64,000 nt of DNA from Paracoccus sp. SCSIO 75233 (GTDB lineage Bacteria; Pseudomonadota; Alphaproteobacteria; Rhodobacterales; Rhodobacteraceae): positions 2,942,501 to 3,006,500 of the forward strand of contig NZ_CP115757.1 in NCBI RefSeq assembly GCF_027912675.1. The letters run 5' to 3'. The notes under the pieces were generated by a model, which did no database searches, was not told the DNA's origin, and worked only from the letters and a program-made list of their open reading frames with translations. Both the position numbers and the translations under genes were made by a program. Within the stretch, counting starts at the first letter, position 1; every line of letters begins with the position of its first letter. Shown here one piece after another: positions 1,754 through 25,741 of the stretch.

Positions 1754-1968
1754 ACAAATAAAATCAATTTCTTATAAAAACATTGGTGCGTTGCAACCGC
1801 CTTTCTCGCGTTGCAAAGTGACGCAAAACCTTTCCTCGCGATACTAAAGACTTACAGACGTTCCGATTTCCTCCGTGCAACACAAATGCGACATGGATAA
1901 CGTACAATTTCTTTCGCACATTTGACGGAGATGCCGGTTCCTTTCAAACTTGCTGAGAGGAGCAGAGA

Positions 1969-3172: not shown

Positions 3173-3182
3173 GGGAAAAGCT

Positions 3183-7863: not shown

Positions 7864-8093
7864 TTGCCTGGGGGGATGTGATGAAAAAGACCGAGAACGG
7901 ATCGCGAGCTGCGGCAATTCAAACATGATTTGTATCGTTGCTCGTCACTGGGTTCTGGCAGGCGCAGAATGAGCGACCGTGATGTCGTATATTCTCCCGC
8001 ATAGCCCAAGATCGACCCATCCTAGGCCTCGAGTGGCGAACTCTTTCGGATCTGTCATCTGCGGCATGCCCGCTTTTTCTGGAGCGCTTGATA

Positions 8094-9719
8094 ATGTACA
8101 AGACGACTGACCCCAGAATACCGCCGACCGAGGCTTGCGTCCTTCGTCCTTTGCTCGAACGGCAAGCTGAGATGTTGGGCTCGCGAATCTATGCAAAGTT
8201 CGGCGACGGAACGGAATGGAGCTTTGCGGAAACGCTCGCACAAACGCGCCGAACGGCTGCCGGGCTGAAAGCGCTTGGGGTGTGTCCGGGTCAGACCGTG
8301 CTGATCGCACTTCCAAACGGTCCAGATGCGCTTAGGGTATGGTTTGCGGTCAACTATCTCGGGGCGATTGCGGTTCACGTCAATCCTGCCTATCGCGGCG
8401 GATTGCTGGAAAGGGTTATTGTCAACTCTGGAGCGCACATCTTCGTTACGCTCGCAGATCTCGTGCCGTTTATCACAGCAACTGAACGTGGCGCGTTGCG
8501 GCAGTTGATCCTGTTCGGTGAAGCCGAAACGCCGGACGATCTTGAGGTGCATGCCGCCTCGGAGCTGGACGATCACGGCAACGATCCCGGTTCCGCCGAT
8601 ACCGATCTTCTGCCGTTCGATACGCAATGTATTATCTACACCTCCGGCACGACCGGGCCTTCGAAAGGCGTGATGTGTTCCTATCTGCATATCTACACAG
8701 CAGGACGGGCCGTCTATTTTCTGAATGACACTGATCGCTATCTGGTCAATCTGCCGATGTATCATGTCTCAGGTATTCTGCCCTGCATGCTGATGCTGGG
8801 GCTTGGCGGATCAATCGCCGTGATCGAGAGGTTCCGAACGCAGGACTTCTGGAAAACCATTGCCGATACCGAAGCGAGCTTTGCCATTCTGTTGGGCGTC
8901 ATGACCCGGTTTCTACTGAACCAGCCCGAATGTGAGGAAGAAAAACTGGGCCATTTGCGGCATATCATCCAGCAACCTCTGGATGAAGATGCCGCCATTC
9001 TGCGGGAACGTTTCGGTTTCGATGTCTACACTTCGTTTAATATGACCGAGGTGTCTCTGCCGATTGTTTCCTCTGCCAATCCGGGGGTCGCCGGTACATG
9101 CGGGACTGCGCGGGACGGTGTGTCGCTGCGAATTGTGGATGATTACGATTGCGAGGTGCCGACGGGAGAGACGGGGGAGCTGATCGTTCGGACGGATCGA
9201 CCCTACGCGATGATGCATGGCTATTACCGCGATCCGGAGGCAACGGCGAAGGCATGGCGCAACGGCTGGTTTCACACCGGTGACCGTTTCCGCATGGATG
9301 AGGCCGGAAACTACTATTTCGTCGACCGGCTCAAGGACACCATCAGGCGCCGCGGCGAGAACATTTCATCGTTTGAGGTTGAGGCTGCGCTTATGGCGCA
9401 CCCTTCCATTCGCGAGGCGGCGGCAGTGGCCGTCGACAGCGAGATCAGCGAAAGCGAGGTGCTGGCCGTCGTGTCTCTGGCTGACAGTCAGGTGCTCGAC
9501 CCTGCTGAACTGATTGTTTTTTTGCGCCCGAGGCTGGCGCATTTCATGATCCCGCGATTTGTGCGGATCGTGGAGGAATTGCCCAAAACGCCGACGCAGA
9601 AAATTGAAAAACATGTGTTGCGCAAGATTGGGCTGAGCGAAGGCGATGCTTGGGACCGGGAGCTGGCGGGGGTCTCTGTCCGTCGCGCGGCCCCTGGGAC
9701 TGCTGACGCCCATAGGTGA
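8094..9719 (+). CDS. acyl-CoA synthetase (AMP-forming), CaiC/LvaE-like
   Basis: A 541-residue ANL-superfamily ligase. It has the P-loop-like YTSGTTGPSKGVM near residue 180, YTSFNMTEV (A5 motif), FHTGDRF (A7 region), and the C-terminal PKTPTQKIEKHVL, whose Lys completes adenylation. The pattern is closest to carnitine/crotonobetaine-CoA ligases. The ATG at 8094 follows GGAG with 9-bp spacing; a TTG two codons earlier is less likely. It activates a free acid to its CoA thioester and would supply the dehydrogenase/kinase pair upstream. A 12-bp gap links it to the carboxylase gene. The substrate cannot be read from the sequence. Confidence 0.93.
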   Translation: MYKTTDPRIPPTEACVLRPLLERQAEMLGSRIYAKFGDGTEWSFAETLAQTRRTAAGLKALGVCPGQTVLIALPNGPDALRVWFAVNYLGAIAVHVNPAYRGGLLERVIVNSGAHIFVTLADLVPFITATERGALRQLILFGEAETPDDLEVHAASELDDHGNDPGSADTDLLPFDTQCIIYTSGTTGPSKGVMCSYLHIYTAGRAVYFLNDTDRYLVNLPMYHVSGILPCMLMLGLGGSIAVIERFRTQDFWKTIADTEASFAILLGVMTRFLLNQPECEEEKLGHLRHIIQQPLDEDAAILRERFGFDVYTSFNMTEVSLPIVSSANPGVAGTCGTARDGVSLRIVDDYDCEVPTGETGELIVRTDRPYAMMHGYYRDPEATAKAWRNGWFHTGDRFRMDEAGNYYFVDRLKDTIRRRGENISSFEVEAALMAHPSIREAAAVAVDSEISESEVLAVVSLADSQVLDPAELIVFLRPRLAHFMIPRFVRIVEELPKTPTQKIEKHVLRKIGLSEGDAWDRELAGVSVRRAAPGTADAHR

Positions 9720-9731
9720 AGGAATATCCGC

Positions 9732-12700
9732 GTGCCGGAACTCAAGTCACTCCTCATCGCCAATCGCGGCGAGATCGCAATCCGCATCGCGCGGGCGGCG
9801 GCGGAACTTGGAATAGAAACGATCGGGATCGCGCCGCGTGATGATGGCGCCTCGCTGCATCTCAGTCATGTGGATCGATTTCGGACGCTTGAAGGCGTGG
9901 GAGCGAAAGCCTATCTCGATTTGGATACAATCATGGCAATTGTCGCAGAAGAAGGCTGCGATGCGGTCCATCCCGGTTATGGCTTTCTGAGCGAGAACGC
10001 GGAATTCGCACGGCGCTGTGAGGACGCCGGGGTCCGCTTTGTTGGACCGGATTCCGAAGTACTGTCGGAATTGGGTGATAAGGCTGCGGCCCGAACATTG
10101 GCCCTTTCTCATTCCGTCCCGCTGCTCGAAGGAACTGACGCGGGCATTACGGAAGCTGACGCCGCCGCTTTTATGGCATCGTTGGGAGACGACGCATCCA
10201 TCATGATCAAGGCAGTTTCAGGTGGCGGGGGGCGTGGCATGCGTGTGGTCCGCACGCGAGATGATTTACCACAAGCTTATGCAATCTGCCGGAGTGAAGC
10301 TCTGGCGGCATTTGGCGACGATGCGGTCTACGCGGAGCGCTTTGTGCCGCGAGCCCGCCATGTTGAAGTCCAAATCCTGGGGGATAACCGGGGCGGGCTT
10401 TGCCATCTTTGGGATCGCGAATGCTCGCTTCAACGCCGCCATCAGAAAGTGATTGAAATTGCGCCTTGCGTGGGTTTGCCAATCACCACAAGGCAGGCGA
10501 TGATTGACGCCGCTTTGAAAATGGCTGGTGCGGTCGACTATCGTAGCCTTGGCACATTTGAGTTTCTCGTAGATGCGGATGCGCCCGGTTCTGACGCATT
10601 TTGGTTCATGGAGGCAAATCCGCGCATTCAGGTTGAGCACACGGTCACCGAGGAAGCGACCGGGATTGATATCGTGCAGGCGCAACTTGCTATCGCGGGC
10701 GGAGCAACACTGAGCGACCTTGGGCTGAATGACAGCCTTCCGGAGCCAGCTTTCACGGCAATACAGGCTCGGGTCACGATGGAGCGGATTGAAGCGGATG
10801 GCAGCTTAAAGCCGGCAGCGGGCAAGCTGAGCGTTTTTGAGCCGCCTACCGGACCGGGGGTGCGGACGGATAGCTTCGCTTATGCGGGTTACCACACCAG
10901 TACCGCATATGATCCGCTGCTAGCGAAGGTTATTGTGAAAACGCGCGGACATGATTTTGGGCGTGCGGTCGGGAAGTTGGATCGTGCGCTTTCGGAGATG
11001 CAGATTCAAGGTGTCGATACGAATCTGGAATTTCTGCGCCGGTTGCTGGCCCATCCGCAGGTTGTGGAGGGGAGTTTTTATACACGGTTCATCGAAGATC
11101 ATGCCGTCGATCTGCTAAATGCGGGTCTGGCTGCGAAGCGCCATCCGGCGGCTGAGGTAGAAACCGGCGCGCATGCATCGAGCGACAGCGACGCGCCTTC
11201 GCTTGGCTCTGGCGAAATTGCCGTGGCCGCCCCGATGCAGGGAATGGTGATTACTGTTAGCGTGAAGCCGGGCGATGAGGTGGTTCCGGGACAGGAGTTG
11301 GGTCTTGTCGAGGCGATGAAGATGCAAATGGCGATTACCGCTCCGCAATCCGGGCAGATAACCTTCGCCATTGCGGAGGGATCCCAGACCGAGGCTGGCG
11401 GGGTTCTCTTTCATATCGCGGCAGATCAAAAAGCCGAGGCGCTGCGGAAGGCGGCTGAGGCGCCCGATCCTGATCATATTCGCCCAGAGCTTGAGGAGTT
11501 GCAGGCGCGACGTGCGACCTTGCTTGACGATGCCCGGCCCGAAGCTGTGGCCAAGCGGCACGGGCTGGGAAAGCGCACGATTCGGGAAAACCTGGCCGAA
11601 TTTTTCGATGAAACACGTTATGATGAATATGGCAGCCTGACAATCGCCGCGCAGCGTCAGCGCAGATCAATAGATGAACTTATACGCATAAGCCCCGCTG
11701 ACGGCATGATCGCCGCGATAGGTCAGGTCAATTCAGACGAGTTTGGAGCGCAAGCCACGCGCTGCATTGCGCTTGCCTATGATTACACGGTGCTGGCCGG
11801 GACGCAGGGCATCAACTCTCACAAGAAGACGGATCGGATGCTTGAATTGGCCGGGAAATGGCGCGCGCCGGTCATGATCTTTGCCGAGGGTGGCGGTGGA
11901 AGGCCCGGGGATACGGACTATCCCGGCATGACCGGGTTGGCGTCGATGACCTTTCGACGCCTTGCTGCGCTGAATGGTCAGGTGCCGCTTGTCGGCATCG
12001 CGACGGGTCGTTGCTTTGCCGGGAATGCGGCAATGCTGGGATGTTGTGACGTTATAATAGCAACGGAAGACTCGTCTATCGGCATGGCTGGTCCGGCGAT
12101 GATCGAAGGCGGAGGGCTGGGCGTCGTCCGTCCCGAAGAGGTCGGCCCGGTTTCTGTACAGGGTCCGAATGGGGTTATCGATATTCTGGTGAAGGACGAA
12201 GCCGCCGCCATGGATATTTCGCGCAAGTATCTTAGCTATTTTCAGGGCCGGATCGACGATTGGGATGCGGCTGATCAGCGCCTGTTGAGGAATGCAATCC
12301 CGCAAGACCGAATGCGAGCTTATGATATTCGGTCGCTGATCGGTTTGCTTTGCGACGTGAATTCGGTGCTGGAGCTTCGCGCGCAGTTTGCGCCGGGCAT
12401 TGTGACGGCACTGGTCCGCATCGAAGGTCATCCGATGGGCCTGATCGCGAATGATCCGCGTGTGCTTGGCGGCGCCATCGATGCGGACTGTGCAGACAAG
12501 ACGGCCCGGTTTTTGCAATTATGCGATGCATTCGACCTTCCGGTCCTGTCACTTTGCGACACGCCGGGTTTCATGGTTGGGCCGGCGGCCGAAAAAACCG
12601 CGTTGGTAAGACATGTCTCGCGCATGTTTGTCGCGGCGGCTGGCATGGATGTTCCACTTGTTACGCTGGTACTGCGCAAGGGTTACGGGCTGGGTGCCAT

Positions 12701-13025
12701 GGGTATGTCGGGGGGCAGCTTTCATGCCGCTGATGCGACATTTGCCTGGCCCACCGGAGAATTCGGCGGGATGGGCCTAGAAGGCGCGGTCCGGCTCGCT
12801 TACCGCAAGGAGCTGGCTGCGGTCGAGGGAAAGGCGCGTGAGGCGCTTTTCCGCGAATATGTCGATAAGCTCTATGAGAAAGGTAAGGCGCTCAACATCG
12901 CCGCGTCTCTGGAAATCGATGATGTGATTGATCCTGCCGAAACGCGCAGCCGCATTGTGAATGTTCTGGCAACCGCGGAATTTTCACGGAAGTCGTGCGC
13001 AATGAGGCGAATAGACACCTGGTAG
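9732..13025 (+). CDS. single-chain acyl-CoA carboxylase (biotin carboxylase-BCCP-carboxyltransferase)
   Basis: A 1097-residue biotin-dependent carboxylase with all activities in one chain. Biotin carboxylase occupies about residues 1-450 (ANRGEIAIRIARAA, HPGYGFLSENAEF, KAVSGGGGRGMR, MEANPRIQVEH). The biotinyl domain has VEAMKMQM near residue 525. The carboxyltransferase occupies about 590-1090 (AGTQGINSHKKTDRM, GGGGRPGDTDYPG, RKGYGLGAMGMSG). This layout matches the homohexameric long-chain acyl-CoA carboxylase (LCC) group. It starts with GTG after AAGGA. If the upstream enzymes release propionyl-CoA, carboxylation to methylmalonyl-CoA would be the natural job, but LCC-type enzymes are promiscuous and the substrate is open. 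Confidence 0.93.
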   Translation: MPELKSLLIANRGEIAIRIARAAAELGIETIGIAPRDDGASLHLSHVDRFRTLEGVGAKAYLDLDTIMAIVAEEGCDAVHPGYGFLSENAEFARRCEDAGVRFVGPDSEVLSELGDKAAARTLALSHSVPLLEGTDAGITEADAAAFMASLGDDASIMIKAVSGGGGRGMRVVRTRDDLPQAYAICRSEALAAFGDDAVYAERFVPRARHVEVQILGDNRGGLCHLWDRECSLQRRHQKVIEIAPCVGLPITTRQAMIDAALKMAGAVDYRSLGTFEFLVDADAPGSDAFWFMEANPRIQVEHTVTEEATGIDIVQAQLAIAGGATLSDLGLNDSLPEPAFTAIQARVTMERIEADGSLKPAAGKLSVFEPPTGPGVRTDSFAYAGYHTSTAYDPLLAKVIVKTRGHDFGRAVGKLDRALSEMQIQGVDTNLEFLRRLLAHPQVVEGSFYTRFIEDHAVDLLNAGLAAKRHPAAEVETGAHASSDSDAPSLGSGEIAVAAPMQGMVITVSVKPGDEVVPGQELGLVEAMKMQMAITAPQSGQITFAIAEGSQTEAGGVLFHIAADQKAEALRKAAEAPDPDHIRPELEELQARRATLLDDARPEAVAKRHGLGKRTIRENLAEFFDETRYDEYGSLTIAAQRQRRSIDELIRISPADGMIAAIGQVNSDEFGAQATRCIALAYDYTVLAGTQGINSHKKTDRMLELAGKWRAPVMIFAEGGGGRPGDTDYPGMTGLASMTFRRLAALNGQVPLVGIATGRCFAGNAAMLGCCDVIIATEDSSIGMAGPAMIEGGGLGVVRPEEVGPVSVQGPNGVIDILVKDEAAAMDISRKYLSYFQGRIDDWDAADQRLLRNAIPQDRMRAYDIRSLIGLLCDVNSVLELRAQFAPGIVTALVRIEGHPMGLIANDPRVLGGAIDADCADKTARFLQLCDAFDLPVLSLCDTPGFMVGPAAEKTALVRHVSRMFVAAAGMDVPLVTLVLRKGYGLGAMGMSGGSFHAADATFAWPTGEFGGMGLEGAVRLAYRKELAAVEGKAREALFREYVDKLYEKGKALNIAASLEIDDVIDPAETRSRIVNVLATAEFSRKSCAMRRIDTW

Positions 13026-13139: not shown

Positions 13140-14264
13140 ATGACACATATCTCGACCACGTTGGGGGCGCTGGCAGTTGCCACGGCTTTGTCAACGCCAT
13201 CCGCAAATGCTGAAGAGTTGCGTTTTGCGATCGGTGTGCCTGAGAACTTTACCATCGTTCAGGCGATGACCTATTTTGCGGATACCATTCCGGAACGAAC
13301 GAATGGCGAAATTACCGCCAAACTCTTTACCGGCTCATCGTTGCTCAACTTTACCGAAACCTTCTCCGGTGTGCGCGACGGGATCGCGGATATGGGTTAT
13401 GTGGTTTCGGCCTATCACCGGGCGGAGCTGAAAGAATCAAACCTGATCGGTGATCTTGGCATGCTCGGTTCCAATCTGGTCGTTATGGCGGGCGCTGCCA
13501 GCGAATACTGCCTAACGGATGCCGAATGCATTGCCGAATATCAGCGCGAGGGCCAGGTGTTTCTCGGCTTCGCGTCGACACCTCCCTATAGGTTGATTTC
13601 GGTGGAGCCCTTGGAAACGCTGGACGACGTAAAGGGCAAACGGATCCGCAGCTTTTCGGGTCAGGGACGCTGGGCAGAAGCGCTTGGCGCAGTTCAGGTC
13701 AACCTGCCCGCGGGCGATATTTACGAAGGGTTTTCTCAGGGTACGATTGACGTGAATACTCATCCATATGAGGCGTTTGAGACGTTGAGCCTCAAGGATG
13801 TGGCGAAATATGTCACGGATCTGCCGCTAGGCACCTTCTATGTTAACGCGCTATTCAACACCAATATCGACGTTTGGCGGAATTGGGACGAAGCGACCCG
13901 GATCGCTGTCATGGATACGGCCGCGGAGGGTCTTGGTCGTGCTGCAGCGGCGACCTATGCGGAGGATCTGGCCTATCACGACGGCGGTGTCGAGGCCTTG
14001 GGCGTCACCGTAATCACTCCCTCGCCGGAGCTGATAAGCGCAACCGAGGAGTTTGTTGCGGCTGATGTTCCGGGCATCGCGACGCTGAACGAAGAGACCT
14101 TTGGCGTGACAGGCGCTGCGGAGAAAATTGATAGGTTTCGGGCTCTGGTGGAAAAATGGACCGGCCTTGTCGGTGAAATTGACGCCAGCGATCCTGAGGC
14201 CGTCGCCGGGCTGTATCGCGAAAACATCTTCGGGGATGTCGACAAAGCCAATTACGGGCTTTGA
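13140..14264 (+). CDS. TRAP transporter substrate-binding protein (DctP family)
   Basis: A 374-residue periplasmic binding protein with a signal peptide of about 25 residues (THISTTLGALAVATALS, cut after ANA). The mature part includes GKRIRSFSGQGRWAEALGA and ELISATEEFVAADV, in the style of DctP/DctB folds. The substrate-orienting Arg is probably in the KRIRSF segment. GGGAGGAAACC sits just before the ATG at 13140; an ATG at 13110 lies within the inverted repeat and is unlikely. It is the first gene of a complete TRAP set. TRAP systems take up carboxylates with a sodium gradient, and the hydratase and lyase genes downstream suggest a di- or tricarboxylic acid ligand (inference). Confidence 0.92.
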   Translation: MTHISTTLGALAVATALSTPSANAEELRFAIGVPENFTIVQAMTYFADTIPERTNGEITAKLFTGSSLLNFTETFSGVRDGIADMGYVVSAYHRAELKESNLIGDLGMLGSNLVVMAGAASEYCLTDAECIAEYQREGQVFLGFASTPPYRLISVEPLETLDDVKGKRIRSFSGQGRWAEALGAVQVNLPAGDIYEGFSQGTIDVNTHPYEAFETLSLKDVAKYVTDLPLGTFYVNALFNTNIDVWRNWDEATRIAVMDTAAEGLGRAAAATYAEDLAYHDGGVEALGVTVITPSPELISATEEFVAADVPGIATLNEETFGVTGAAEKIDRFRALVEKWTGLVGEIDASDPEAVAGLYRENIFGDVDKANYGL

Positions 14265-14332
14265 TCCGCTTGCCCTAATTTCGCGCGGGGGTCTTCCCCC
14301 GCGTTTTCATCCATCTGTGGAAAGGGCATATC

Positions 14333-14869
14333 ATGCTTTTCGCGATTGGCCGTGTTATTGGGCGGGTGCTCGACGCCACGCAAATCATCGCCGCGTTTCT
14401 GATCCTCGCCATGATGCTGCATGTCTCAGCCGATGTGATCATGAAATACGGATTCAATATGGGGTTTCCGGCCACTGTCGAGATCGTCTCGAATTACTAC
14501 ATGGTGGGCCTCGCATTCTTGCCGTTGGCGTTTGCAGAGCGAATGAATGCGCATATTACCGTTGAGGTCGTAACATCAAATCTCAGCCAGAAAGTGCAAG
14601 ATATTGCCCAGATTATCGCATGGTTATTGTCCATCATTGTCTATTCTCTGCTGACCTATCGCAGCTTTTTGGACGCACAGGAAAAGCGTGAAATCGGCGC
14701 GTTTCTGTTTAGTCAGGGTGTGCGGATAGATATTTGGCCCAGTTACTATTTCCTGCCTGTCGGTTTCGCGCTGATGATGCTGACGCTGGCGTATAAGCTG
14801 ATCGTTTTTTTCCGGCCATCGGATGACGGGCTCTCCCAAACGCGACGCTTGGAGGTTGGCTCATCATGA
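14333..14869 (+). CDS. TRAP transporter small permease (DctQ family)
   Basis: A 178-residue membrane protein with four predicted transmembrane segments, starting around residues 10-30 (LDATQIIAAFLILAMMLH), 45-65 (EIVSNYYMVGLAFLPLAF), 85-110 (IAQIIAWLLSIIVYSLL) and 130-155 (YYFLPVGFALMMLTLAY). The conserved DctQ element EIVSNYYMVGLAFL is present. Its stop overlaps the start of the large permease gene (ATGA), showing translational coupling. It lies 68 bp after the binding-protein gene. Confidence 0.93.
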   Translation: MLFAIGRVIGRVLDATQIIAAFLILAMMLHVSADVIMKYGFNMGFPATVEIVSNYYMVGLAFLPLAFAERMNAHITVEVVTSNLSQKVQDIAQIIAWLLSIIVYSLLTYRSFLDAQEKREIGAFLFSQGVRIDIWPSYYFLPVGFALMMLTLAYKLIVFFRPSDDGLSQTRRLEVGSS

Positions 14870-16176
14870 CGGATCTGATGATTGGCTTTACCGGGATAGG
14901 GGTGGCTGTCTTTCTCATCCTCGCGCGTATCCCGATAGCAGTCGCGCTGATATCGGTCTCTTTCGTGGGTATTTTCGTTCTGCTCGGCGAACGGGCCGCG
15001 TTCGGTATCCTCTCTGCGGTCGTTTATGATTTCATCGCGAAGTGGACGCTTACCTCTATTCCGATGTTCCTTCTGATGGGGTTTGTCTGCTTTCATGCGG
15101 GGCTAACGCGCGGGCTCTTCAATATGTGCCGGGTTTTCCTTGCGCGCCTGCCAGGAGGCCTCGCGATCACGGCGGTTGCCGGCTCAGCGGGATTTGCCAC
15201 GGTTTCCGGCTCCAGCGTTGCCTGCGCTGCCGCCATGGGTCGCATTGCCGTGCCAGAGATGCTGCGGCTTGGTTACAAACCGGAACTGGCGACGGGTTCG
15301 ATTGCTGCTGCCGGTACGATAGGCGCGCTTATTCCCCCGTCGATCCTGCTCATCCTGTTCGGCATATTCACGCAAACCCCGATCAGCCTGCTGTTTCTCG
15401 GCGGGATCGGCGCGGGGATCATAACTGCGCTGTCCTATGTCTTCATCATCATTCTTAGAGTCAGGCGGGATCCATCCCTGGCGCCGATGTCCGCTGAACC
15501 GATCACGGCAGAAGAGCGCCGACAGGCGATCCGTGAGACATGGCCCACGCTTCTGTTGATTGCAGTCGTCTTTGGCGGGCTGTTTTCCGGGATATTTACC
15601 GCGACGGAGGCCGGTGCTGTCGGTGCATTGGCCTCATTCGTCATTGCTGCGATGAACCGTACGCTGACGCGGCGGGTGGCGTGGGATGCCATCACCGAAA
15701 CCACTTACACGACCGCCAGCATCTTCGTGATTACGATCGGCGCCAATTTGCTGACCCGGTTCCTTTCCGTGAGCGACGTTGCAAATGTGATGTCACAGGC
15801 TGTGATCTCCTTCGGTGCAGAGCCGTGGATCCTTGCCTGTGGGCTCGTGCTTCTCTATCTGGCGCTCGGACTTATTCTTGAGCCTATGGGTGCGCTTCTG
15901 CTGACGTTGCCGGTCGTGCTGCCGGTAATGGAATCGTCAGGTGCCAGCATGATCTGGTACGGAGTCCTGATCGTGAAACTGCTGGAGATGGGCATGATCA
16001 CGCCGCCGGTCGGGCTGAACGTTTTTGTCGTGAAAAGCGTGGTTGGCGACCTCGTTCCGACATCAGCCATCTTCCGCGGCATATTGTGGTTTCTTCTCAT
16101 CGATCTGGTCGTGGTCGGGTTGATGATCGCATTTCCGTCGCTCGTCACGATGATTCCCGAATTGTTGGCGGAGTGA
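14866..16176 (+). CDS. TRAP transporter large permease (DctM family)
   Basis: A 436-residue integral membrane protein with about 12 hydrophobic segments. The conserved DctM stretches are GSAGFATVSGSSVACAAAMG and AAGTIGALIPPSILLILFG early, and GLILEPMGALLLTLPVVLPV and KLLEMGMITPPVGLNVFVVK late. Length is normal (about 425-440). It overlaps the small permease gene by 4 bp. With DctP and DctQ it forms a complete importer. The C-terminal EMGMITPPVGLN motif is typical of functional family members, so I see no sign of decay. Confidence 0.95.
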   Translation: MTDLMIGFTGIGVAVFLILARIPIAVALISVSFVGIFVLLGERAAFGILSAVVYDFIAKWTLTSIPMFLLMGFVCFHAGLTRGLFNMCRVFLARLPGGLAITAVAGSAGFATVSGSSVACAAAMGRIAVPEMLRLGYKPELATGSIAAAGTIGALIPPSILLILFGIFTQTPISLLFLGGIGAGIITALSYVFIIILRVRRDPSLAPMSAEPITAEERRQAIRETWPTLLLIAVVFGGLFSGIFTATEAGAVGALASFVIAAMNRTLTRRVAWDAITETTYTTASIFVITIGANLLTRFLSVSDVANVMSQAVISFGAEPWILACGLVLLYLALGLILEPMGALLLTLPVVLPVMESSGASMIWYGVLIVKLLEMGMITPPVGLNVFVVKSVVGDLVPTSAIFRGILWFLLIDLVVVGLMIAFPSLVTMIPELLAE

Positions 16177-16219
16177 CGGATCCGCCTGTCGTCTCACTAG
16201 ACAACATGGCGGTTGTATG

Positions 16220-16248
16220 TTGACACGTTAGATGCGTGGGCGTAGGCT
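16220..16248 (+). promoter_or_regulatory. putative sigma-70 promoter TTGACA-N17-TAGGCT
   Basis: TTGACA at 16220-16225, a 17-bp spacer and TAGGCT at 16243-16248, 31 bp before the hydrolase start codon. It is nearly the same arrangement as at 7835 and 24261. Confidence 0.5.
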
Positions 16249-16279
16249 TTGCGGGAGCAATGTTGGCTGGAGGAGCAAC

Positions 16280-17185
16280 ATGGCCGTCTTTCAGGTCGGA
16301 GATTATCGTATTCAGCGGATCGAGGAGATCCTCGAAAAAGGCTATAAGCCCGAGTTCATGTTGCGTGGCTTTTCCCCCGACATGTTCGACGCCCATCCGG
16401 AAGCCGCTACGGAAAACTTCTTCGACCGCGAAACCGGGCGCTCCTGGAGTTCCGTGCATTCCTGGCTGATCACGCATGGCGATACCAAGATCATCGTCGA
16501 TACGTGCTCGGGAAACGGAAAAGCCCGTGCGCTGCCGGTGTTTCAGCGGTTCCATATGCTTGAGTTGCCTTATCTCGAAAACCTGGCTGACGCTGGATTG
16601 AGCCCGGATGACATCGACATTGTCTTCAATACGCATTTGCACATAGACCATGTCGGTTGGAACACCCGTAAGGAGGGTGACGCCTGGGTGCCGACCTTCG
16701 GCAACGCGCGCTATATTTTCGGCAGAGCGGAAATGGAGCATTGGCGGCCCGATGGGGTTGGGCCGAGGGTTTTCCCTGACAATATTGCGGTTATTGAGGA
16801 TAGCGTTGTGCCATGCGTCGACGCGGGCGTGGTCGAGTATGTCGATGATGGGGACGAGATTTATCCCGGCCTGCGTGTCGAGGCTGCGCCAGGCCACACT
16901 GCGACACAGTTGGTACTGAAGCATGACGGACCGGACGGCGCGTTCGTGATCTCTGCCGATATATTGCACTATCCTATCCAGATCTACGAGCCGCATGTCA
17001 CCAGCAGATTTTGCGAGGATCCCCACGCGGCGGAAAAGACCCGCCGTGAACTTCTCGAATGGGCAGTTGAAAGAGAAGCTCTGGTTTTGCCGATGCATTT
17101 TGGGCGGCCCCATGCCGCCTACATTGAGCGAAGGGGAGAGGGTTACGGGTTCCGTCCAGCAGAGAGCATGTCATCGATCATATGA
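16280..17185 (+). CDS. metallo-beta-lactamase-fold hydrolase
   Basis: A 301-residue protein with the dinuclear metal signature NTHLHIDHVGW (HxHxDH), a further His in APGHTATQ, the bridging Asp in SADILHYP, and a last His in LPMHFGRPH. The overall form resembles the lactonase/alkylsulfatase-like MBL group. The ATG at 16280 follows GGAGGAG. It heads a transcription unit with the aconitase-type hydratase pair and the lyase. It could open a lactone or hydrolyse an ester or thioester at the start of the pathway (inference). No partner is visible that would decide between these. Confidence 0.88.
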   Translation: MAVFQVGDYRIQRIEEILEKGYKPEFMLRGFSPDMFDAHPEAATENFFDRETGRSWSSVHSWLITHGDTKIIVDTCSGNGKARALPVFQRFHMLELPYLENLADAGLSPDDIDIVFNTHLHIDHVGWNTRKEGDAWVPTFGNARYIFGRAEMEHWRPDGVGPRVFPDNIAVIEDSVVPCVDAGVVEYVDDGDEIYPGLRVEAAPGHTATQLVLKHDGPDGAFVISADILHYPIQIYEPHVTSRFCEDPHAAEKTRRELLEWAVEREALVLPMHFGRPHAAYIERRGEGYGFRPAESMSSII

Positions 17186-17259
17186 AATTTCGGATGTTAT
17201 CAAAGTGAGAATAGCGCGTGGGTCCGCGCAAGCCGAACGCCAACGAACAGGACGAAACA

Positions 17260-18516
17260 ATGGGTTACACGATTACGGAAAAAATTCTTGCTCGGGTGTC
17301 GGGCAAGGAAAATGTCAGAGCCGGAGACGAAGTCATGGCCAAGCCGGATTTCGTGGTTGCTTATGATTTCCCTGGCTACACCGATGTCATTTTTCGGCAA
17401 ATGAAAGAGGATTTCGGGATCGAAAAAGTTGCAGAGCCGGAGCGTTTTGCGATCTTCATCGACCACATGGTACCTTCAGCCACGCCGAAAGATGAGGAAC
17501 TGCATATCGGGACACGCACCTGGTGCAAGGAAAACGACGTCGCGCTTTATGAGCGGCGCGGCATTGGTCACCAGGTTGCGGCGGAGGTGGGATATGCCGT
17601 CCCAGGTGCGTTCGTTGTGCATTTTGACGGTCATATCAGCCAGCTCGGAACTTTTGGAACGCTGGCCATGGGGGTGCGCCGCAATCTGCTGGAAGCCTTT
17701 GTCAAGGAACGGATCTCGATCAAGGTGCCGCAGACGGTGCGGGTCAATCTTCACGGAGCATTGAAGCCCGGGGTGATGGCGCGCGATGTGTTCCACCACC
17801 TCGTGCGGGTTCTCGGGCCTGCCTCTTGCCGCTTTCAGGTGCTTGAGATCGGTGGTCCGGGAGTAGAATCGATTTCGACCGAGGGGCTTCAGGTCATCAC
17901 CGGACTGGCGATGTTCACCGGAGCGGTGACCGCTATCGTCAACCCTGACAAAGAGCGGCTGGACTACGCCTTGTCCCGCGCTCGTAAGGAGATTGAGCCA
18001 GTTTGGAGCGATGAAGACGCCGAATATGCGGCGGTGCATGATCTTGACATCTCCGATCTGGAGCCGGTGATCGTGATCCCGCCGACACCGTCGAATACCC
18101 GCGATCTCGTCGACTATCTCGGGTTGGAACTGAACGCCGGTTATCTTGGCTCCTGTGCGTCCGGGCGTCTTGAAGACCTGAAGATCGCGGCGGAAATTCT
18201 GAAAGGCAAACAAGTCGCTCAGGGGTTCCAGCTCAATGTTGTGCCGACAAGCCAGGAGATCATGGCAGAGGCAGGGCGGCTTGGTTATCTGTCGGTTCTG
18301 ACCGAGGCCGGGGCTTTCGTCTCTGCGCCAAGCTGCGACTATTGCTACGGTCGAATGGGCACGATGAGTGAAAAGCAGCGGGCGGTTTCAACCGGCACGC
18401 TGAATGTACGGGGACGGATGGGCAGCCCGGATAGCGAAATCTATCTTTGCAACGCTGCAACCGTGGCGGCTTCTGCCCTTGAGGGGAAGGTCGCCGATCC
18501 CCGGAAATATCTGTGA
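17260..18516 (+). CDS. aconitase-family hydratase, large subunit (LeuC/DmdA-like)
   Basis: A 418-residue iron-sulfur hydrolyase subunit of the short LeuC/homoaconitase type. The [4Fe-4S] ligands are visible as GSCASGR near residue 298 and SCDYCYG near 365, followed by MSEKQRAVSTGTLNVRGRMG. The start at 17260 follows AGGA; a GTG at 17218 is possible but poorly placed. The small subunit follows after 12 bp. The enzyme adds or removes water next to a carboxylate. Isopropylmalate isomerase is unlikely because no leucine genes are near. Dimethylmaleate hydratase (DmdAB of Eubacterium barkeri) offers a better contextual parallel, because a PEP-mutase-family lyase follows. Confidence 0.9.
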   Translation: MGYTITEKILARVSGKENVRAGDEVMAKPDFVVAYDFPGYTDVIFRQMKEDFGIEKVAEPERFAIFIDHMVPSATPKDEELHIGTRTWCKENDVALYERRGIGHQVAAEVGYAVPGAFVVHFDGHISQLGTFGTLAMGVRRNLLEAFVKERISIKVPQTVRVNLHGALKPGVMARDVFHHLVRVLGPASCRFQVLEIGGPGVESISTEGLQVITGLAMFTGAVTAIVNPDKERLDYALSRARKEIEPVWSDEDAEYAAVHDLDISDLEPVIVIPPTPSNTRDLVDYLGLELNAGYLGSCASGRLEDLKIAAEILKGKQVAQGFQLNVVPTSQEIMAEAGRLGYLSVLTEAGAFVSAPSCDYCYGRMGTMSEKQRAVSTGTLNVRGRMGSPDSEIYLCNAATVAASALEGKVADPRKYL

Positions 18517-18528
18517 TGGAGAGCTAGG

Positions 18529-19077
18529 ATGACACTCAGCAATCTGCGCGGACGGGTCGCTTTCATTTTCGAGGAACAAGATTTTGACATCGACCAGATC
18601 GTCGGCGTCAAGAATATCAAAATTCAGGATCTCGACGAACTCGCGGCAATCGCAATGGAAAGCTACGATCCAGATTTTGCGTCCAAGATAAAACCGGGCG
18701 ATATTCTCGTCGGGAACCATAATTTCGGTTACGGACATCCGCATTATCCCTCGATGCGTGCGATGCGGCATCTTGGGATCGGAGGCGTGGTTTGCGAAAG
18801 CTTCTCTCCCGGCTATTGGCGCGGCGAGATTTCTATGGGTTTCCCGCAAGTTACCTGCCCGGGTATCCTGGACATTGTCAGCCGCTGGGATGAGATCGAA
18901 GTCGATTGGGACGCTTGTGAGCTTCGCAATCTGACGACGGGAAAAACCCTGCCGACCGAACCACTATCGAATGCCGACCGTGCCATGCTCGAATATGGCG
19001 GGCTGATTGGCTACCTCAAGCGACCCAACGACAGCACCGGGTCTGAAACAGCAGCAAATGAAAGGCAGTCGAAATGA
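18529..19077 (+). CDS. aconitase-family hydratase, small subunit (LeuD/DmdB-like)
   Basis: A 182-residue swivel-domain protein. It keeps the general plan (IVGVKNIKIQDLDELA, then DILVGNHNFGYG, then GIGGVVCESFSPGYW). It lacks the canonical GSSREHAP substrate-recognition loop of LeuD; the corresponding place reads FGYGHPHYPSMRAM. The active-site loop is therefore distinct and the substrate is probably not isopropylmalate. The final segment runs past the usual end and its stop overlaps the lyase start by 4 bp. The tail after residue 150 (GGLIGYLKRPNDSTGSETAA) looks unstructured. Confidence 0.85.
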   Translation: MTLSNLRGRVAFIFEEQDFDIDQIVGVKNIKIQDLDELAAIAMESYDPDFASKIKPGDILVGNHNFGYGHPHYPSMRAMRHLGIGGVVCESFSPGYWRGEISMGFPQVTCPGILDIVSRWDEIEVDWDACELRNLTTGKTLPTEPLSNADRAMLEYGGLIGYLKRPNDSTGSETAANERQSK

Positions 19078-19949
19078 GAACCGCGGATTTCAAGAATAAG
19101 GTCACAGGCCAGAAAACCGTCTGGACTGGAGGTTGCTTCGATGCTCTGTCCGCGAAGCTGATCGAGCGCGCCGGTTTCGATGCCGTCATGACAAGCGGTT
19201 TCGGCGTGTCCGCGTCGCTTTTGGGGATGCCGGACGCCGAACTCTATACCATGACCGAAAACTCGGGAGTGGTGCGTAATGTCGCGAGCGCGGTCGACAT
19301 TCCGGTCATTGCGGATATGGACACCGGCTATGGCAATGCGATTAACGTCATGCGCTCGGTCCGGGAATTCGAGCAGACGGGGGCGTCTGCGGTGATCCTA
19401 GAGGACCAGGTGTCACCCAAACGTTGTCCGATTTGTGTCAGCGGGGTCGAGGTGATCGGTCGCGATGAGGCGGCAAAAAAAGTTGCCGCCGCCGTTGAGG
19501 CGCGCCGCGACCCGAATATGCTGATTATTGCGCGGACAGATGCGTCCACGGTGGACGAAGCGATTCTGCGTGCCAAGGAATACGTTGCCGCAGGTGCTGA
19601 TATTGTCCAGCCGATCAGCGGCACGTTCAAATCGCTTGACGATCTGAAGCGCCTCCGCGAGGCAGCCGGTGTCCCGCTATCGCTGCAAATTCTTGGCTGG
19701 CTGGAGCAGGATCTGTCGGCAGAAGACATTGAAAGCGTGGCAGGCCTAGCCGTCTACCCGCTGATCGCTTTGATGACTGCTGCGGAGGCAATGTCGGAAA
19801 ACCTCGCAAAGCTCCGCGCCGAGCGAAGCTCTGCTAATCTGCCCCATGCAAGAATGGATCATCACGAATTCATCGATATGATTGGCTTTTCTGAGGTCGA
19901 GAGATTGCAGCTTAAATATCTTAAAAATGATGCGGAAAGCGCGGCTTGA
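19074..19949 (+). CDS. isocitrate lyase/PEP mutase-family lyase (dimethylmalate lyase-like)
   Basis: A 291-residue TIM-barrel lyase. The metal and substrate motifs are DMDTGYGNA, ILEDQVSPKRCPIC and IARTDAS. The lyase signature in this family is K-[KR]-C-G-H; here it is KRCPI, so the catalytic Cys is kept but the next two residues differ. Members with Cys cleave 2-hydroxyacids carrying a carboxylated C3, for example 2-methylisocitrate lyase and 2,3-dimethylmalate lyase, giving pyruvate or an analogue. Translational overlap with the hydratase small subunit makes sequential action likely. The gene ends 33 bp before a strong terminator that lies inside the converging IclR gene. Confidence 0.9.
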   Translation: MRTADFKNKVTGQKTVWTGGCFDALSAKLIERAGFDAVMTSGFGVSASLLGMPDAELYTMTENSGVVRNVASAVDIPVIADMDTGYGNAINVMRSVREFEQTGASAVILEDQVSPKRCPICVSGVEVIGRDEAAKKVAAAVEARRDPNMLIIARTDASTVDEAILRAKEYVAAGADIVQPISGTFKSLDDLKRLREAAGVPLSLQILGWLEQDLSAEDIESVAGLAVYPLIALMTAAEAMSENLAKLRAERSSANLPHARMDHHEFIDMIGFSEVERLQLKYLKNDAESAA

Positions 19950-19955
19950 TTCACT

Positions 19956-20744
19956 TTATGTGTCTCCGTGAATTCCAAGATCGCGGCGGACTTTCGCCGC
20001 GGTTTTTTGTAAACGCTCAAGGTAGATCGGTTCGTCCCCACGCATCATCTGCGGCGTCAGCCCGGCAACGGAGAGTGCACATATGACCGAGCCGTCCCGA
20101 TCGAAGATTGGTATAGCCAAAGCGGTCAGCCCGAGCGCAACATCATCGACGGCGCATTCCCAACCGCGATCACGGATGAGCTTTAGTCGTTCTATCAGCT
20201 CGTCACGGCTGGTGATCGACATCTCGTTCATTCGGGCGATGCTGCCGTCTATCAATCGCTCGACAACTTCATCGGGCTGATAAGCCAAAAGTAGCTTCGG
20301 GGCACCGCCTACGTTCAGCGGCAGCGTGCCGCCGACCGTCCACCAATGGACCTCAATGCCGCGCATATCGTGAACGCGGTCAAGACATACCGCACTATCG
20401 TCTTTAAACACCGAGAGAAATGCGGTCACGCTGAGATCAACGGCCAATTCCTCCAAGACCGGCCGCAAAATAACCCGCAAATCGCGCGCGTCCTCGACAT
20501 TTGACGCAAGCTCTCGGATCGCACGGCCCAGCTTGTATTGATGTGTGATGCTGTCCTGAGCGATAAAATCGCTTTGCATCAGTGTGATAAGCAGCCGCCG
20601 CGTCGTCCCCTTGTCAAGTCCTGTGGCATTTGTCACCTCTGCCAAGGTCTGTGATCCTCTTCCGGCGAAAGAATTTAACACCTCGAGTGCGCGAGTTACC
20701 GCTCGTACATTTGGTGTGGAAGATGCCTTGGGGCCTGATGCCAT
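19956..20744 (-). CDS. IclR-family transcriptional regulator
   Basis: A 262-residue protein. The winged helix-turn-helix is at about 15-75 (ALEVLNSFAGRGSQTLAEV, TGLDKGTTRRLLITLMQSDF), followed by the GAF-like IclR effector domain with CLDRVHDMRG, GGAPKLLLAY and the C-terminal ECAVDDVALGLTALAIP. IclR proteins usually sense the small organic acid degraded by neighbouring genes. It converges on the TRAP/hydratase/lyase operon and diverges from the FAD oxidase gene with 181 bp between starts. It could therefore control either, and the inverted repeat at 13102 is a candidate site. Confidence 0.92.
   Translation of the reverse strand: MASGPKASSTPNVRAVTRALEVLNSFAGRGSQTLAEVTNATGLDKGTTRRLLITLMQSDFIAQDSITHQYKLGRAIRELASNVEDARDLRVILRPVLEELAVDLSVTAFLSVFKDDSAVCLDRVHDMRGIEVHWWTVGGTLPLNVGGAPKLLLAYQPDEVVERLIDGSIARMNEMSITSRDELIERLKLIRDRGWECAVDDVALGLTALAIPIFDRDGSVICALSVAGLTPQMMRGDEPIYLERLQKTAAKVRRDLGIHGDT
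19982..20008 (+). terminator. rho-independent terminator inside the 3' end of the IclR gene
   Basis: CGCGGCG (19982-19988) and CGCCGCG (19995-20001) pair perfectly across a 6-nt loop and are followed by G then TTTTTT. It terminates the plus-strand hydratase/lyase transcript and at the same time encodes the C-terminus of the converging regulator. Confidence 0.85.
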
Positions 20745-20925: not shown

Positions 20926-22521
20926 ATGCAGGGCATCGCAGAAGCGGACGCGCAGGCGTTGTCGCTGATCGTCAAGGCCATTGGCGCTGACAAAGTCGAC
21001 AACAGTGATGACATTCGCGAATACTACGCTAATGATATTTTCTGGCAGCCGGGGATTGAGCCGCTCGCGGTGATCAGTCCTTCGACGCAACGGGAAGCAG
21101 CAGAGGCTGTTCGAGTTGCGATCGAGAATGGCATCGCCATCGTGCCGCGTGGTGGCGGCATGTCGTACACAAAGGGTTATCTCCCTGATCGTGCGCGGTC
21201 TTTGGTGATTGACACGCGCAACCTCAATCGCATTGTCGAAATCAACGCTAAGGACGGCTATGTCACGGTAGAGGCGGGCGCTACATGGGCAGCGTTGAAA
21301 GATGCTTTGGCGTCGAGCGGGATGCGCAGCGGCTATTGGGGGCCGCTGTCCGGGGTCAATGCGACTATCGGCGGCGCTCTGTCTCAAAACAGCGCTTTTT
21401 TCGGGTCTTCCCGCTACGGAACCGTCGCGGAATCAGTGCTTGGCGTGACCGTAGTGCTTGCTGATGGGTCAATCGCGACGACAGGATCGGGTGGGAGGAA
21501 AGGTGCGCGACCGTTCACGCGTTATGGCGGGCCTGATATGACGGGGATTTTCCTTGGCGACAATGGTGCGCTTGGCCTGAAATTGTCCGCAACACTGGCG
21601 ATACGACCAAAACCGCCCGAGACCGGATTCTTGTCCCTCGGGTTTGAGAAATTCACCGATATGGCTGCGACGCAGGTCGAAATGGCCCGCAGTGGGCTTG
21701 TTACCGAAGGCTTTGGGATTGACCGTGACAAGGCGCTTCAATCGGCGAGCGTGAACCGCCTGTCAGATAATGTTGACGCGCTAAAGAAGGTCGTTGGGCA
21801 GGGTAAGTCCTTGCTCTCGGGTTTGAAAGATGCCGCAAAAATAGCGACCTCCGGCCTCGACTGGCTGACGGGCCATAACTACTCGCTTCATATCGTGACA
21901 GAAGCTGAAACCGCCGAAGCACTGTGTACGAACCTAGCGGTTCTGGCCGAAATCGGGGAACGGCGCGGCGCGATTTTGCCTGACTCAATTCCACGCGTTA
22001 TGCGCTCCAAACCGTTTTCGCCGGTGCGCGGAATGCTGGGCAAAAACGGGGAAAGATGGGTGCCAATTCATGCGGTGTTCCCATTGAGCGAGGCGGAGCG
22101 TGTCGTGGAGGCGAACGAAGCCTTTTTTGCCGAACGGGCAGGCTGGCTTAAGGAAAAAGGCATCCTGTACACCGTAATGACGATGACGGTCGGGCAGTCA
22201 TTTTTTATCGAGCCCGCGTTTTACTGGCTCGATGAATTAACCCCGCTTCATATCCGGTCAGTGGGTGACGCGATAAAGCCGGATTGGAAACGGCGGCCTG
22301 CAAATGAGGATAGTCGTAACGCCGTGGTCGAACTCCGACGGGCGACGCAGGAGTTCTATGTCAGCCTTGGCGGAGCAAGTTGGCAGGTCGCGCGTGACTA
22401 TCCGTATCGCGAGGTGCTGGATGATGGCACGCGCGGTTTGCTCGACGCATTAAAGCGGGCGGTTGACCCGGAAGGACTCATGAATCCCGGTTCCTTGGGT
22501 CTCGCGGCCACATTTCAATAG
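20926..22521 (+). CDS. FAD-linked oxidase (VAO/PCMH family)
   Basis: A 531-residue flavoprotein. The N-terminal FAD-binding PCMH domain shows IAIVPRGGGMSYTKGYL, then DGYVTVEAGATWAALK and GPLSGVNATIGGALSQN. The C-terminal cap ends VDPEGLMNPGSLGL, typical of FAD-linked oxidase C domains of the lactate/glycolate/alkyl-DHAP synthase group. GGGGGGAGTC precedes the ATG. It could oxidise a 2-hydroxy acid or a phenolic or alcohol substrate; the sequence alone does not decide. A TTGACA at 20871 may belong to its promoter, but the matching -10 is poor. The CoA ligase follows after 28 bp, so the product may be activated to a thioester. Confidence 0.88.
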   Translation: MQGIAEADAQALSLIVKAIGADKVDNSDDIREYYANDIFWQPGIEPLAVISPSTQREAAEAVRVAIENGIAIVPRGGGMSYTKGYLPDRARSLVIDTRNLNRIVEINAKDGYVTVEAGATWAALKDALASSGMRSGYWGPLSGVNATIGGALSQNSAFFGSSRYGTVAESVLGVTVVLADGSIATTGSGGRKGARPFTRYGGPDMTGIFLGDNGALGLKLSATLAIRPKPPETGFLSLGFEKFTDMAATQVEMARSGLVTEGFGIDRDKALQSASVNRLSDNVDALKKVVGQGKSLLSGLKDAAKIATSGLDWLTGHNYSLHIVTEAETAEALCTNLAVLAEIGERRGAILPDSIPRVMRSKPFSPVRGMLGKNGERWVPIHAVFPLSEAERVVEANEAFFAERAGWLKEKGILYTVMTMTVGQSFFIEPAFYWLDELTPLHIRSVGDAIKPDWKRRPANEDSRNAVVELRRATQEFYVSLGGASWQVARDYPYREVLDDGTRGLLDALKRAVDPEGLMNPGSLGLAATFQ

Positions 22522-24290: not shown

Positions 24291-24517
24291 AGTTGAGAGG
24301 GGGAGTTATCGAGGGGGGATCATGCCACCACTCGCCAACAGCCGTTCTTACCGGCTGGCTGTGCGAGGTTATCATATCACTGCTGATCGCATCCAAAGCC
24401 ATAATCACGACCAGACGGCCACGTCGTCGTCTCAACCGTTATGCGGCCAGCGTTGGCAATTTACCTAGGCTACGTAATCCCGCCACATCAGGCGGGGCGA
24501 ACCCAAGGGGGGAGTTC

Positions 24518-25741
24518 ATGGAAAGATTAAGCAACAAGTTGACGGGCGCAGCGGCAGCGCTGGCGCTCAGCCTCGGGGGGGCGGCATTCGCCGCTCCGAC
24601 GCCCGGCGAATATAATATCGGCATCATCAGTGACGATACCGGGCCGATCGCTTCTGCCGGCATTTCGTATCACAACGGTGCGGAGCTTGCGGTCGAAGAA
24701 ATTAATGCCGGCGGTTACGCAGGTGATGGTGTGACGCTGAATCTGCTCGTCAAAGATAGCGGTACCGATGCCGCCCGCGCGGTGCAGGCGATGACGCAAT
24801 TCGCCGCTGATCGTTCAGTAATGGCGACGACTTGCTGTATCATCACCCCTATTGCTGGCGCCGTGTCGCAGGTGGCGATGCGGGAGAAATTGCCGCTGGT
24901 GATTTATGGCGCGACGCGCGAAGGGCTGCCGCAGGAGCCATTCGTCACTTCGGTTGTGGCGCTGCCCGGTCCGCAAGAGGTCATGATGGCCAAGGAACTG
25001 GCGAATGTTCTCGACCCCAAGCGGGTGGTCTATTACGTGACCGGCGACAACGACATCTTCCTTGATCGCGCCTATGCGATGAAAGAGGTGCTCGAAGAGT
25101 ATGGTGCCGAAACAGTCGCGGAAATTTCCACGCTTGCAAACGATACCGACTTTACCGGACCGGCGACGCAAGGCATGGGCGCGGACCCCGACCTGATCCT
25201 GGTCATGGCCACCCAGCAACCTTCTGTGGGGATTATCTCCGCGCTGCGTGAACGTGGGTTCGAAGGCAACATCGCGACATCCGAGGTGCTTTCGCCACCT
25301 GCGATTTATCAGAAGTCTGGCAATATCGTAGCTGGCATTCCGTTTGCTTTGTCGTTCCAGCCGGGCCTCTCATCGTCTGAAGAGGCGACGGCATTCATCG
25401 AGGCGTATCAGGAAAAATTCGGCTCACTGCCGGATGTGTATGCCGCACAAGGCTATACTGCGATTCAATACATGGCGCAGGGCATGGCCGCGCTTGATGG
25501 CGATCCGACGCGAGAAGCTCTGGCGGAAAGCATGTGGCAGATCAACGAAATTGAGCGCAACCTCGTTTCGGCAGGCGATCCGCCAGACCCGCGCGCGATC
25601 GCGGGTTTTGTTGCCGAAAGGCTCGCATCCTATAAATGTCCGCAGGAATATGAATTCGTGTCAGAACTGCCCCGCAACGCCTTGGGCAAAGTGCTTAAGT
25701 CAGAGTTGCAAAGCCTGTTTACTTTTTCCGGGAAAGCCTAG
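24518..25741 (+). pseudogene. chimera: branched-chain-type ABC binding protein fused to a CoA-ligase C-terminus
   Basis: A 407-residue open frame. Residues 1-24 are a signal peptide (ALALSLGGAAFA), and up to about 345 it is a LivJ-type binding protein (GIISDDTGPIASAGISYHNG, VEEINAGGYAGDGV). The last 55 residues are the C-terminal subdomain of an AMP-forming CoA ligase (IAGFVAERLASYKCPQEYEF, SELPRNALGKVLKSELQ), including its catalytic Lys. The two halves never belong together. The join near 25545-25580 marks a deletion that removed the end of the binding protein, any transporter genes and most of a ligase gene, by chance in frame. A strong GGGGGGAG site precedes the ATG. Export of a functional protein is doubtful. 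Confidence 0.85.

Follow-up and report, generated by a model that had tools for sequence, protein, structure and literature searches.

The locus analyzed here lies in a 64,000-nucleotide stretch of the genome of Paracoccus sp. SCSIO 75233 (contig NZ_CP115757.1, positions 2,942,501 to 3,006,500 of the forward strand), which is termed the window at its full length, and it centers on a gene pair for an aconitase-type hydratase together with a gene for a lyase of the phosphoenolpyruvate (PEP) mutase/isocitrate lyase family (PEPM). An earlier note made from the DNA alone had named genes for a tripartite ATP-independent periplasmic (TRAP) importer, a metallo-β-lactamase (MBL)-fold hydrolase, the hydratase pair and the lyase, and Pfam and NCBIfam searches located all of them as open reading frames (ORFs). 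Class II denotes below the form of the hydratase and lyase present in this locus and its relatives, and class I the canonical form. The genes of the locus are as follows.

13140..14264, forward strand: TRAP solute-binding protein DctP (PF03480, 95 bits)
14333..14869, forward strand: TRAP small permease DctQ (PF04290, 86 bits)
14866..16176, forward strand: TRAP large permease DctM (PF06808, 259 bits; TIGR00786 above cut-off)
16280..17185, forward strand: MBL-fold metallo-hydrolase, lactonase/methyl-parathion-hydrolase-like (PF00753 Lactamase_B, 66 bits)
17260..18516, forward strand: aconitase/LeuC-type large subunit, class II (PF00330, 205 bits, and alignments)
18529..19077, forward strand: LeuD-type small subunit, class II (no Pfam match; TIGR02087, 107.4 bits)
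19074..19949, forward strand: PEPM lyase, class II (PF13714 PEP_mutase, 142 bits)
19956..20744, reverse strand: IclR-type regulator of the cassette (PF01614, PF09339; relatives adjoin the cassette elsewhere)
20926..22521, forward strand: FAD_binding_4 oxidoreductase of the cassette (PF01565; best cassette neighbors 59–64% identical)

A purine-rich ribosome-binding site precedes both the ATG at 13140 (DctP) and the ATG at 16280 (MBL), and homologue alignment placed the start of the LeuC-like gene at 17260, not at the GTG at 17218. The genes for the IclR regulator and the FAD oxidoreductase, which were absent from the earlier note, are further members of the cassette, their relatives being found in the same cassette elsewhere.

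Conservation of the cassette was studied by scanning genome contigs with a LeuC alignment, and relatives were found to be encoded in 258 stretches. The best 80 loci of the 258, for which the scan used the LeuC patterns AYDFPGYT and VHFDGH[IV]S, were combined with six plasmid loci to give a set of 86, some of them cut by contig ends; L166 and L167 were taken as contigs of L043 and L089 and left out of the counts. Counting within 10 kb of the LeuD-like gene, LeuD was present in 86 loci, LeuC in 85 and a PEPM-family gene in 81, and the arrangement is therefore not due to chance. Since hydratase and lyase are kept together in 81/86 loci, a common intermediate is likely, and the proposal of a hydratase–lyase pair is supported. 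The IclR cluster was found in 49 of the 86 loci and a second IclR cluster in 12, while a tandem alpha/beta hydrolase occurred in 23, the MBL hydrolase in 37 and the FAD enzyme in 32. The last two occur in under half of the loci, so that some versions of the pathway would do without them. The lactonase-like step suggested previously is not supported as a fixed part of the system. The nearest solved relatives of the MBL hydrolase are of the organophosphorus/lactonase type and its HxHxDH motif is kept in 37/37 members of its cluster, while the equivalog cut-offs for N-acyl-homoserine lactonases (AiiA, AttM, AidB, AhlS and YtnP) were not reached, the best being AidB at 56.3 against 360. For the FAD ORF at 20926–22521, the Pfam scan did not report PF02913 (FAD-oxidase_C type), and the D-2-hydroxyacid dehydrogenase motif HxGDGNxH was present in 0/32 members of its cluster as against 14/14 in cluster c18.

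The large subunit of the hydratase was aligned with solved relatives and with the aconitase of the same genome, the row for the genome's own LeuC being left out because it was in the wrong frame. All three cysteines of the [4Fe-4S] cluster are kept (GSC, SCDxC), as are DH, GHQ, D.H and E on the iron side, so that the cluster cysteines and the Fe-side Asp, His and Glu of the aconitase superfamily are all present. Residues are numbered as in mitochondrial aconitase. Throughout the 86 class II LeuC rows, the Arg452 equivalent is kept, the active-site Arg447 equivalent is replaced by Leu (86/86) and the Ser166 equivalent is Gly (94%) or Pro. The change in the small subunit is equally uniform: GHPHYP stands where aconitases read GSSREH in 86/86 loci, and among the 120 homologues listed, the window's own included, GHPH was found in all 120 and GHPHYP in 119. 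In eight additional loci, the residue after GHPH is Y, F or A. The small subunit thus has no GSSRE motif with its catalytic serine, a motif that is assumed for DmdB from the superfamily; passages of PMC8184944 give Ser642 as the catalytic base in mitochondrial aconitase. The small subunit scored 107.4 bits with the LeuD/DmdB family TIGR02087 (cut-off 108.95, missed by 1.5 bits only), and the large subunit 335 bits with TIGR01343 (cut-off 385.7). The equivalog cut-offs for 3-isopropylmalate isomerase were likewise not reached (TIGR02083, 299.5 vs 610.65; TIGR02084, 82.4 vs 245.85).

The lyase shows the same combination of kept and replaced residues. In the numbering of Pseudomonas aeruginosa PrpB, whose residues we assigned to columns of the lyase alignment, D60, D87, D89, E117, Arg160 and the Cys of the PEPM/isocitrate lyase (ICL) superfamily are present in the window enzyme, and across the 82 members of the class II lyase cluster the Mg ligands and the 2-oxo-acid Arg are conserved at 95–100% and the catalytic Cys at 95%. 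The Mg2+ ligands, Arg160 and the catalytic Cys of PrpB and ICL are described in passages of PMC11982470 and PMC7609661, and the former also gives KRCGH or KKCGH as the catalytic loop of PEPM/ICL C–C lyases. The window lyase has neither loop and reads KRCP. CP replaces GH in 73/82 cluster members, and the remaining nine comprise three KRCA, four KHT[ND], a KRCG in a second copy in L056 and a KKCG in L069. The ANMVEGGKTP loop is replaced by SLQ[IL]LGWLE in the class II lyase, and the score with the PrpB family TIGR02317 is 188.4 bits against a cut-off of 354.4. A second gene of the PEP_mutase family lies in the window at 47595–48293 on the reverse strand; its Pfam score (206 bits) is above that of the cassette lyase, and its matches to all named NCBIfam lyases are weak.

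A parallel set of operons carries the class I enzymes. Twelve class I loci were picked from plasmid hits and hits in relatives for canonical LeuCD, and are not a random sample; a lyase gene was present in the stretch read in ten of them, L126 and L127 showing none there, and all ten loci with a lyase keep CGH, GSSRE and the Arg447 equivalent. Canonical pairs with no PEPM match in the stretch read (L095, L096, L097 and L109) are outside the 12, L096 and L097 still being among the 13 canonical LeuC rows used for the residue tally and the tree. In that LeuC tree of 45 rows (32 class II and 13 canonical), the classes were split on one branch with a support of 100/100. The lyase is of the KRCGH form in the Burkholderia plantarii locus L124 (393–7805), where isochorismatase and two polysaccharide-deacetylase-family genes are neighbors, and in the Paraburkholderia locus L129 (3682–10459), where the neighbors are hydantoinases and isochorismatase. 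L126 has the same set of amide-hydrolase-type genes as L129, while the hydantoinase/isochorismatase set of the L129 type was not found in L093, L123, L125, L127 or L128. The gene content of L124, L129 and L126 is what might be expected if ring opening of a cyclic imide or amide first supplied an alkylmaleate. A third kind of aconitase-like pair, with NFGH-HNH and QFNYQGR, was observed on Roseomonas plasmids (L092, 4542–6540; L094, 4610–6432) near fumarate-hydratase genes and a binding protein of the tripartite tricarboxylate transporter type.

Taken together, the residue changes suggest that the cassette may degrade a compound other than the usual substrates of its relatives. In the order of reactions that we infer, an ester or lactone would first be opened by the MBL hydrolase. 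The [4Fe-4S] hydratase would then hydrate an unsaturated acid to a 2-hydroxy acid, from which the Mg-dependent lyase would release a 2-oxo acid, either pyruvate or glyoxylate, and a second fragment. The half-site for C(OH)-COO− would be kept in both enzymes, in the hydratase by the Fe, the acid/base residues and the Arg452 equivalent, and in the lyase by the Mg ligands together with Arg and Cys, while the distal half-site common to the canonical relatives would be replaced in both class II enzymes. Loss of the distal half-site from the two enzymes alike points to a shared intermediate with a non-carboxylate distal group, most likely a ketone, and we give about an even chance to the intermediate being a distinct one that has no second carboxylate. 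The best explanation of the locus as a whole, which we hold at a little under even confidence, would be a probably acquired cassette in which hydratase and lyase share a 2-hydroxy acid with a distal group other than a carboxylate. A more specific version, in which lactone opening would give a 4-oxo-2-enoate, hydration with His for the Ser base a 2-hydroxy-4-oxo acid and the PEP-mutase fold would act on the latter as a retro-aldolase, is speculative and seems to us doubtful. With a ketone as the distal group, the abstracted proton would be acidic enough to be taken by a His base, and the lyase could perform the retro-aldol reaction. Tetrapyrrole maleimides and strigolactone-like butenolides were also considered as sources of the substrate, and no supporting evidence was found for either.

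In some genomes, a dehydrogenase and a C–C hydrolase of the fumarylacetoacetate hydrolase (FAH) family would replace the lyase step. Support for the mechanism comes from L008, L073 and L077, in which no lyase was seen and an FAH-family gene immediately precedes LeuC, or what a frameshift has left of LeuC in L008. Among NCBIfam models, the L008 copy best matched a 2,4-diketo-acid hydrolase, at 157.9 bits, below the cut-off of 500. Also encoded are a D-2-hydroxyacid dehydrogenase bearing HxGDGNxH in L008 and L073 and a short-chain dehydrogenase/reductase in L077, so that oxidation followed by hydrolysis would offer a 2-hydroxy-4-oxo acid an equivalent way out. FAH-family genes are likewise found in L009 and L036, where the lyase is present, on the opposite strand and not adjoining LeuC. 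The other readable PEPM-family copies in the L073 and L077 genomes (a draft and a metagenome-assembled genome) read CGH, not CP, the only other copy of L073 being KRCGH, which agrees with a lack of class II lyases in these two genomes.

Several observations weigh against such a shared 2-hydroxy acid. The roles of the residues are carried over from mitochondrial aconitase, PrpB and ICL, with which the class II enzymes share little identity, and other residues of these enzymes could hold a second carboxylate. The conservation of the Ser166-to-Gly change and of the two LeuC pattern stretches is partly by construction, because the scan patterns hold them; the changes in LeuD, at Arg447 and in the lyase are unaffected by this. 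The tree program flagged that long branches meet in the 45-row LeuC tree. The lyases of L054, L060, L061 and L090 read KHT[N/D] and have no Cys at that position. Among the loci without a lyase, the LeuC of L008 matches in two frames, the contig of L073 ends 1.7 kb past LeuD so that a lyase may lie beyond it, contig ends also truncate L049 and L087, and neither a lyase nor an FAH gene was seen in L168 or L169, the L169 contig ending 1.4 kb past LeuD. As a separate observation, cluster c35, which L054, L060, L061 and L090 have in common, is a LysR-type regulator in L060.

The earlier note had proposed an aerobic dimethylmaleate-type pathway. On this reading, a dialkylmalate would be cleaved to pyruvate and propionate or a homologue, and the changed residues would tune only the size of the alkyl group. 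The pairing of DmdAB with 2,3-dimethylmalate lyase (Dml) belongs to nicotinate fermentation in Eubacterium barkeri, and the window has the same pair of folds in the same order; moreover, the class I operons show that LeuCD and PEPM are paired in bacteria, two annotated ones having amidase/hydantoinase-family neighbors. However, both class II enzymes have at once lost the residues kept in the canonical operons, and the window proteins fall below the family cut-offs given above, marginally so for TIGR02087 and clearly for TIGR01343 and TIGR02317. A dimethylmaleate/dimethylmalate-type substrate is accordingly disfavored and this pathway is regarded as unlikely for the window, the aerobic DmdAB + Dml idea fitting the class I operons better than class II. 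The hydratase might, on another account, act on an amide- or imide-derived substrate such as a maleamate-type half amide, with a carboxamide in place of the second carboxylate and a ring opened by the MBL enzyme, a hydantoinase or other hydrolases. Homologues of hydantoinase A and/or B were found in 7 of the 86 loci, and a search of 94 loci added L069 and L169, but in that search both isochorismatase queries gave 0/94 and polysaccharide deacetylase 1/94, other amidase families not being sought, and an amide-stabilized carbanion would offer no obvious gain over a carboxylate. We consider this account quite improbable.

It could also be that the LeuC/LeuD and PEPM genes are housekeeping duplicates, encoding a leucine isomerase and a methylisocitrate lyase and adjacent by accident, which was the outcome named in advance as contradicting a joint pathway. 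The database names of the homologues listed, 3-isopropylmalate dehydratase or 3-isopropylmalate/(R)-2-methylmalate dehydratase, would agree with this. However, the same genome encodes at other sites, by domain content and gene arrangement, a separate LeuC/LeuD pair as well as a fused aconitase, and its own PrpB at C1:99271 scores 395 bits, above the curated cut-off of 354, against only 188 bits for the window lyase. Because of these copies, roles of the cassette in leucine biosynthesis or the methylcitrate pathway are unlikely and were rejected as candidates; with the pair conserved in 81/86 loci in addition, accidental adjacency of duplicates is very improbable.

The acquired cassette of the preferred explanation agrees with its sparse distribution. 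When genomes were sampled evenly, relatives were found in 8/385 from the class to which the window belongs (E ≤ 1e-40) and in 4/398 from its phylum, the own genome being included in both counts. Among 101 genomes made up of the own genome and its relatives, same-genus matches other than the window's own were weak (E 1e-5 to 5e-4). On the basis of this rarity and these weak matches, the cassette is accessory and was probably acquired horizontally. At the left end of the window (1852–3343), there are remains resembling an IS66-type transposase, and these would fit a mobile origin.

The genes on either side of the cassette bear on its importer.

8088..9719, forward strand: acyl-CoA ligase LIG1 of the upstream operon (NCBIfam acyl-CoA ligases, no cut-off reached among the 25 families listed)
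9732..13025, forward strand: single-chain biotin-dependent acyl-CoA carboxylase of 1097 aa, same operon as LIG1 (Pfam Biotin_carb_N/C, Biotin_lipoyl and Carboxyl_trans)
24293..25741, forward strand: truncated remnant of a LivK-type binding protein, in frame into an acyl-CoA-ligase C terminus (Peripla_BP_6 above cut-off; AMP-binding_C 24.2 bits, just missing the cut-off of 24.5)
25744..27402, reverse strand: PimA-like acyl-CoA ligase LIG3 of a neighboring β-oxidation-type operon (TIGR03205 605.7 bits, missing the cut-off of 705.6; 67% to L019)
28482..29663, reverse strand: PimC-like acyl-CoA dehydrogenase (TIGR03204 285.6 bits, missing the cut-off of 623.85; 75% to L019)

The adjoining DctP, DctQ and DctM genes make up a TRAP transporter, and the AlphaFold2 (AF2) model of DctP (pLDDT 92.8) has binding proteins for aromatic acids among its top structural matches. 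The commonest importer of the cassette is, however, a branched-chain-type ATP-binding cassette (ABC) system: an ABC permease was found in 44 of the 86 loci, TRAP DctM in 21, both in three and neither in 24. Close orthologues of DctPQM were found in three other genomes (L140, L141 and L142), where they follow the ligase–carboxylase pair, with LIG1 orthologues at 72–74% and carboxylase orthologues at 61–62% adjoining them, and in L140 the TRAP orthologue is on a different contig from the cassette of that genome. The original substrate of the TRAP system therefore belongs to the ligase–carboxylase operon, and the view that the cassette has a TRAP importer of its own is not supported. The LivK remnant at 24293–25741 shares 78% identity over 326 aa with the LivK encoded within the L019 cassette, and is probably the scar of a lost ABC importer, the original cassette having probably had a branched-chain-type ABC system, to judge by its nearest relatives. 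It is possible, though we hold this tentatively and as the less probable case, that the TRAP system now serves the cassette, having replaced the lost ABC importer once the operons adjoined; DctM ends ~ 100 bp before the MBL gene on the same strand and LivK survives as a truncated, fused gene, while the position of the orthologues in L140, L141 and L142 speaks against it. Such a replacement would be compatible with the best explanation.

The carboxylase at 9732..13025, which according to the earlier note might be fed with propionyl-CoA, reached no NCBIfam equivalog cut-off among the 25 families listed. The ligase–carboxylase–TRAP operon has in L140 (4738–6499) and L142 (15434–17175) an IclR gene of its own, at 63–67% to that of the window, and a second MBL gene at 37–40%, so that the two operons may handle related compounds. 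Cluster c21, of ~ 440–540 aa (L074, 12695–14311, and nine other loci), was seen only in loci with TRAP DctM. The L074 copy had no Pfam or NCBIfam match, and eight others aligned with it at 76–96% identity; for the 538-aa protein, the AF2 model had a pLDDT of 46 and a profile search of the PDB gave one chance-level match (E 2.1).

No paper on the cassette or its chemistry was found in the Creative Commons-licensed text of PubMed Central, outside which most subscription journals lie. If the proposed pathway is correct, annotations as 'LeuC/LeuD' and 'isocitrate lyase/PEP mutase' in many Proteobacteria mask a catabolic pathway that is, as far as was found, unpublished, and the hydratase would be a further case, after aconitase X, of an aconitase fold moved to a new substrate. 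The contrast between class I and class II, in which the same two folds occur with and without the distal site, offers a direct test. To our knowledge, the class II hydratase would also be the first such case of a moved aconitase fold with His in place of the serine base.

Among known systems, the closest likeness is to DmdAB + Dml, where a heterodimeric [4Fe-4S] hydratase of the LeuC/LeuD type also adjoins a PEPM-family lyase; the enzymes of the window differ in having no GSSRE, Arg447 equivalent, KRCGH or EGGKTP, and the class I operons suit the comparison better. With the isopropylmalate/citramalate isomerases and homoaconitase (best solved relatives 4kp1, 4nqy, 4kp2, 3vba, 1v7l and 2pkp), the hydratase shares the fold, the cluster cysteines and the Fe-side acid/base residues, but its substrate-side Ser and Arg are replaced. 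The lyase has the Mg ligands, the Arg and the catalytic Cys of PrpB of the 2-methylcitrate cycle, as described in passages of PMC11982470, and differs from PrpB in its KRCP, in the replaced leaving-group loop and in a score of about half the TIGR02317 cut-off. In passages of PMC9804861 and PMC8471276, 'dimethylmalate lyase' serves as the name of a gene in methylcitrate clusters. Finally, aconitase X is, as the class II hydratase would be, a branch of the aconitase superfamily recruited to a new substrate, but according to passages of PMC8184944 it keeps Ser at the base position (Ser70), where class II has His.

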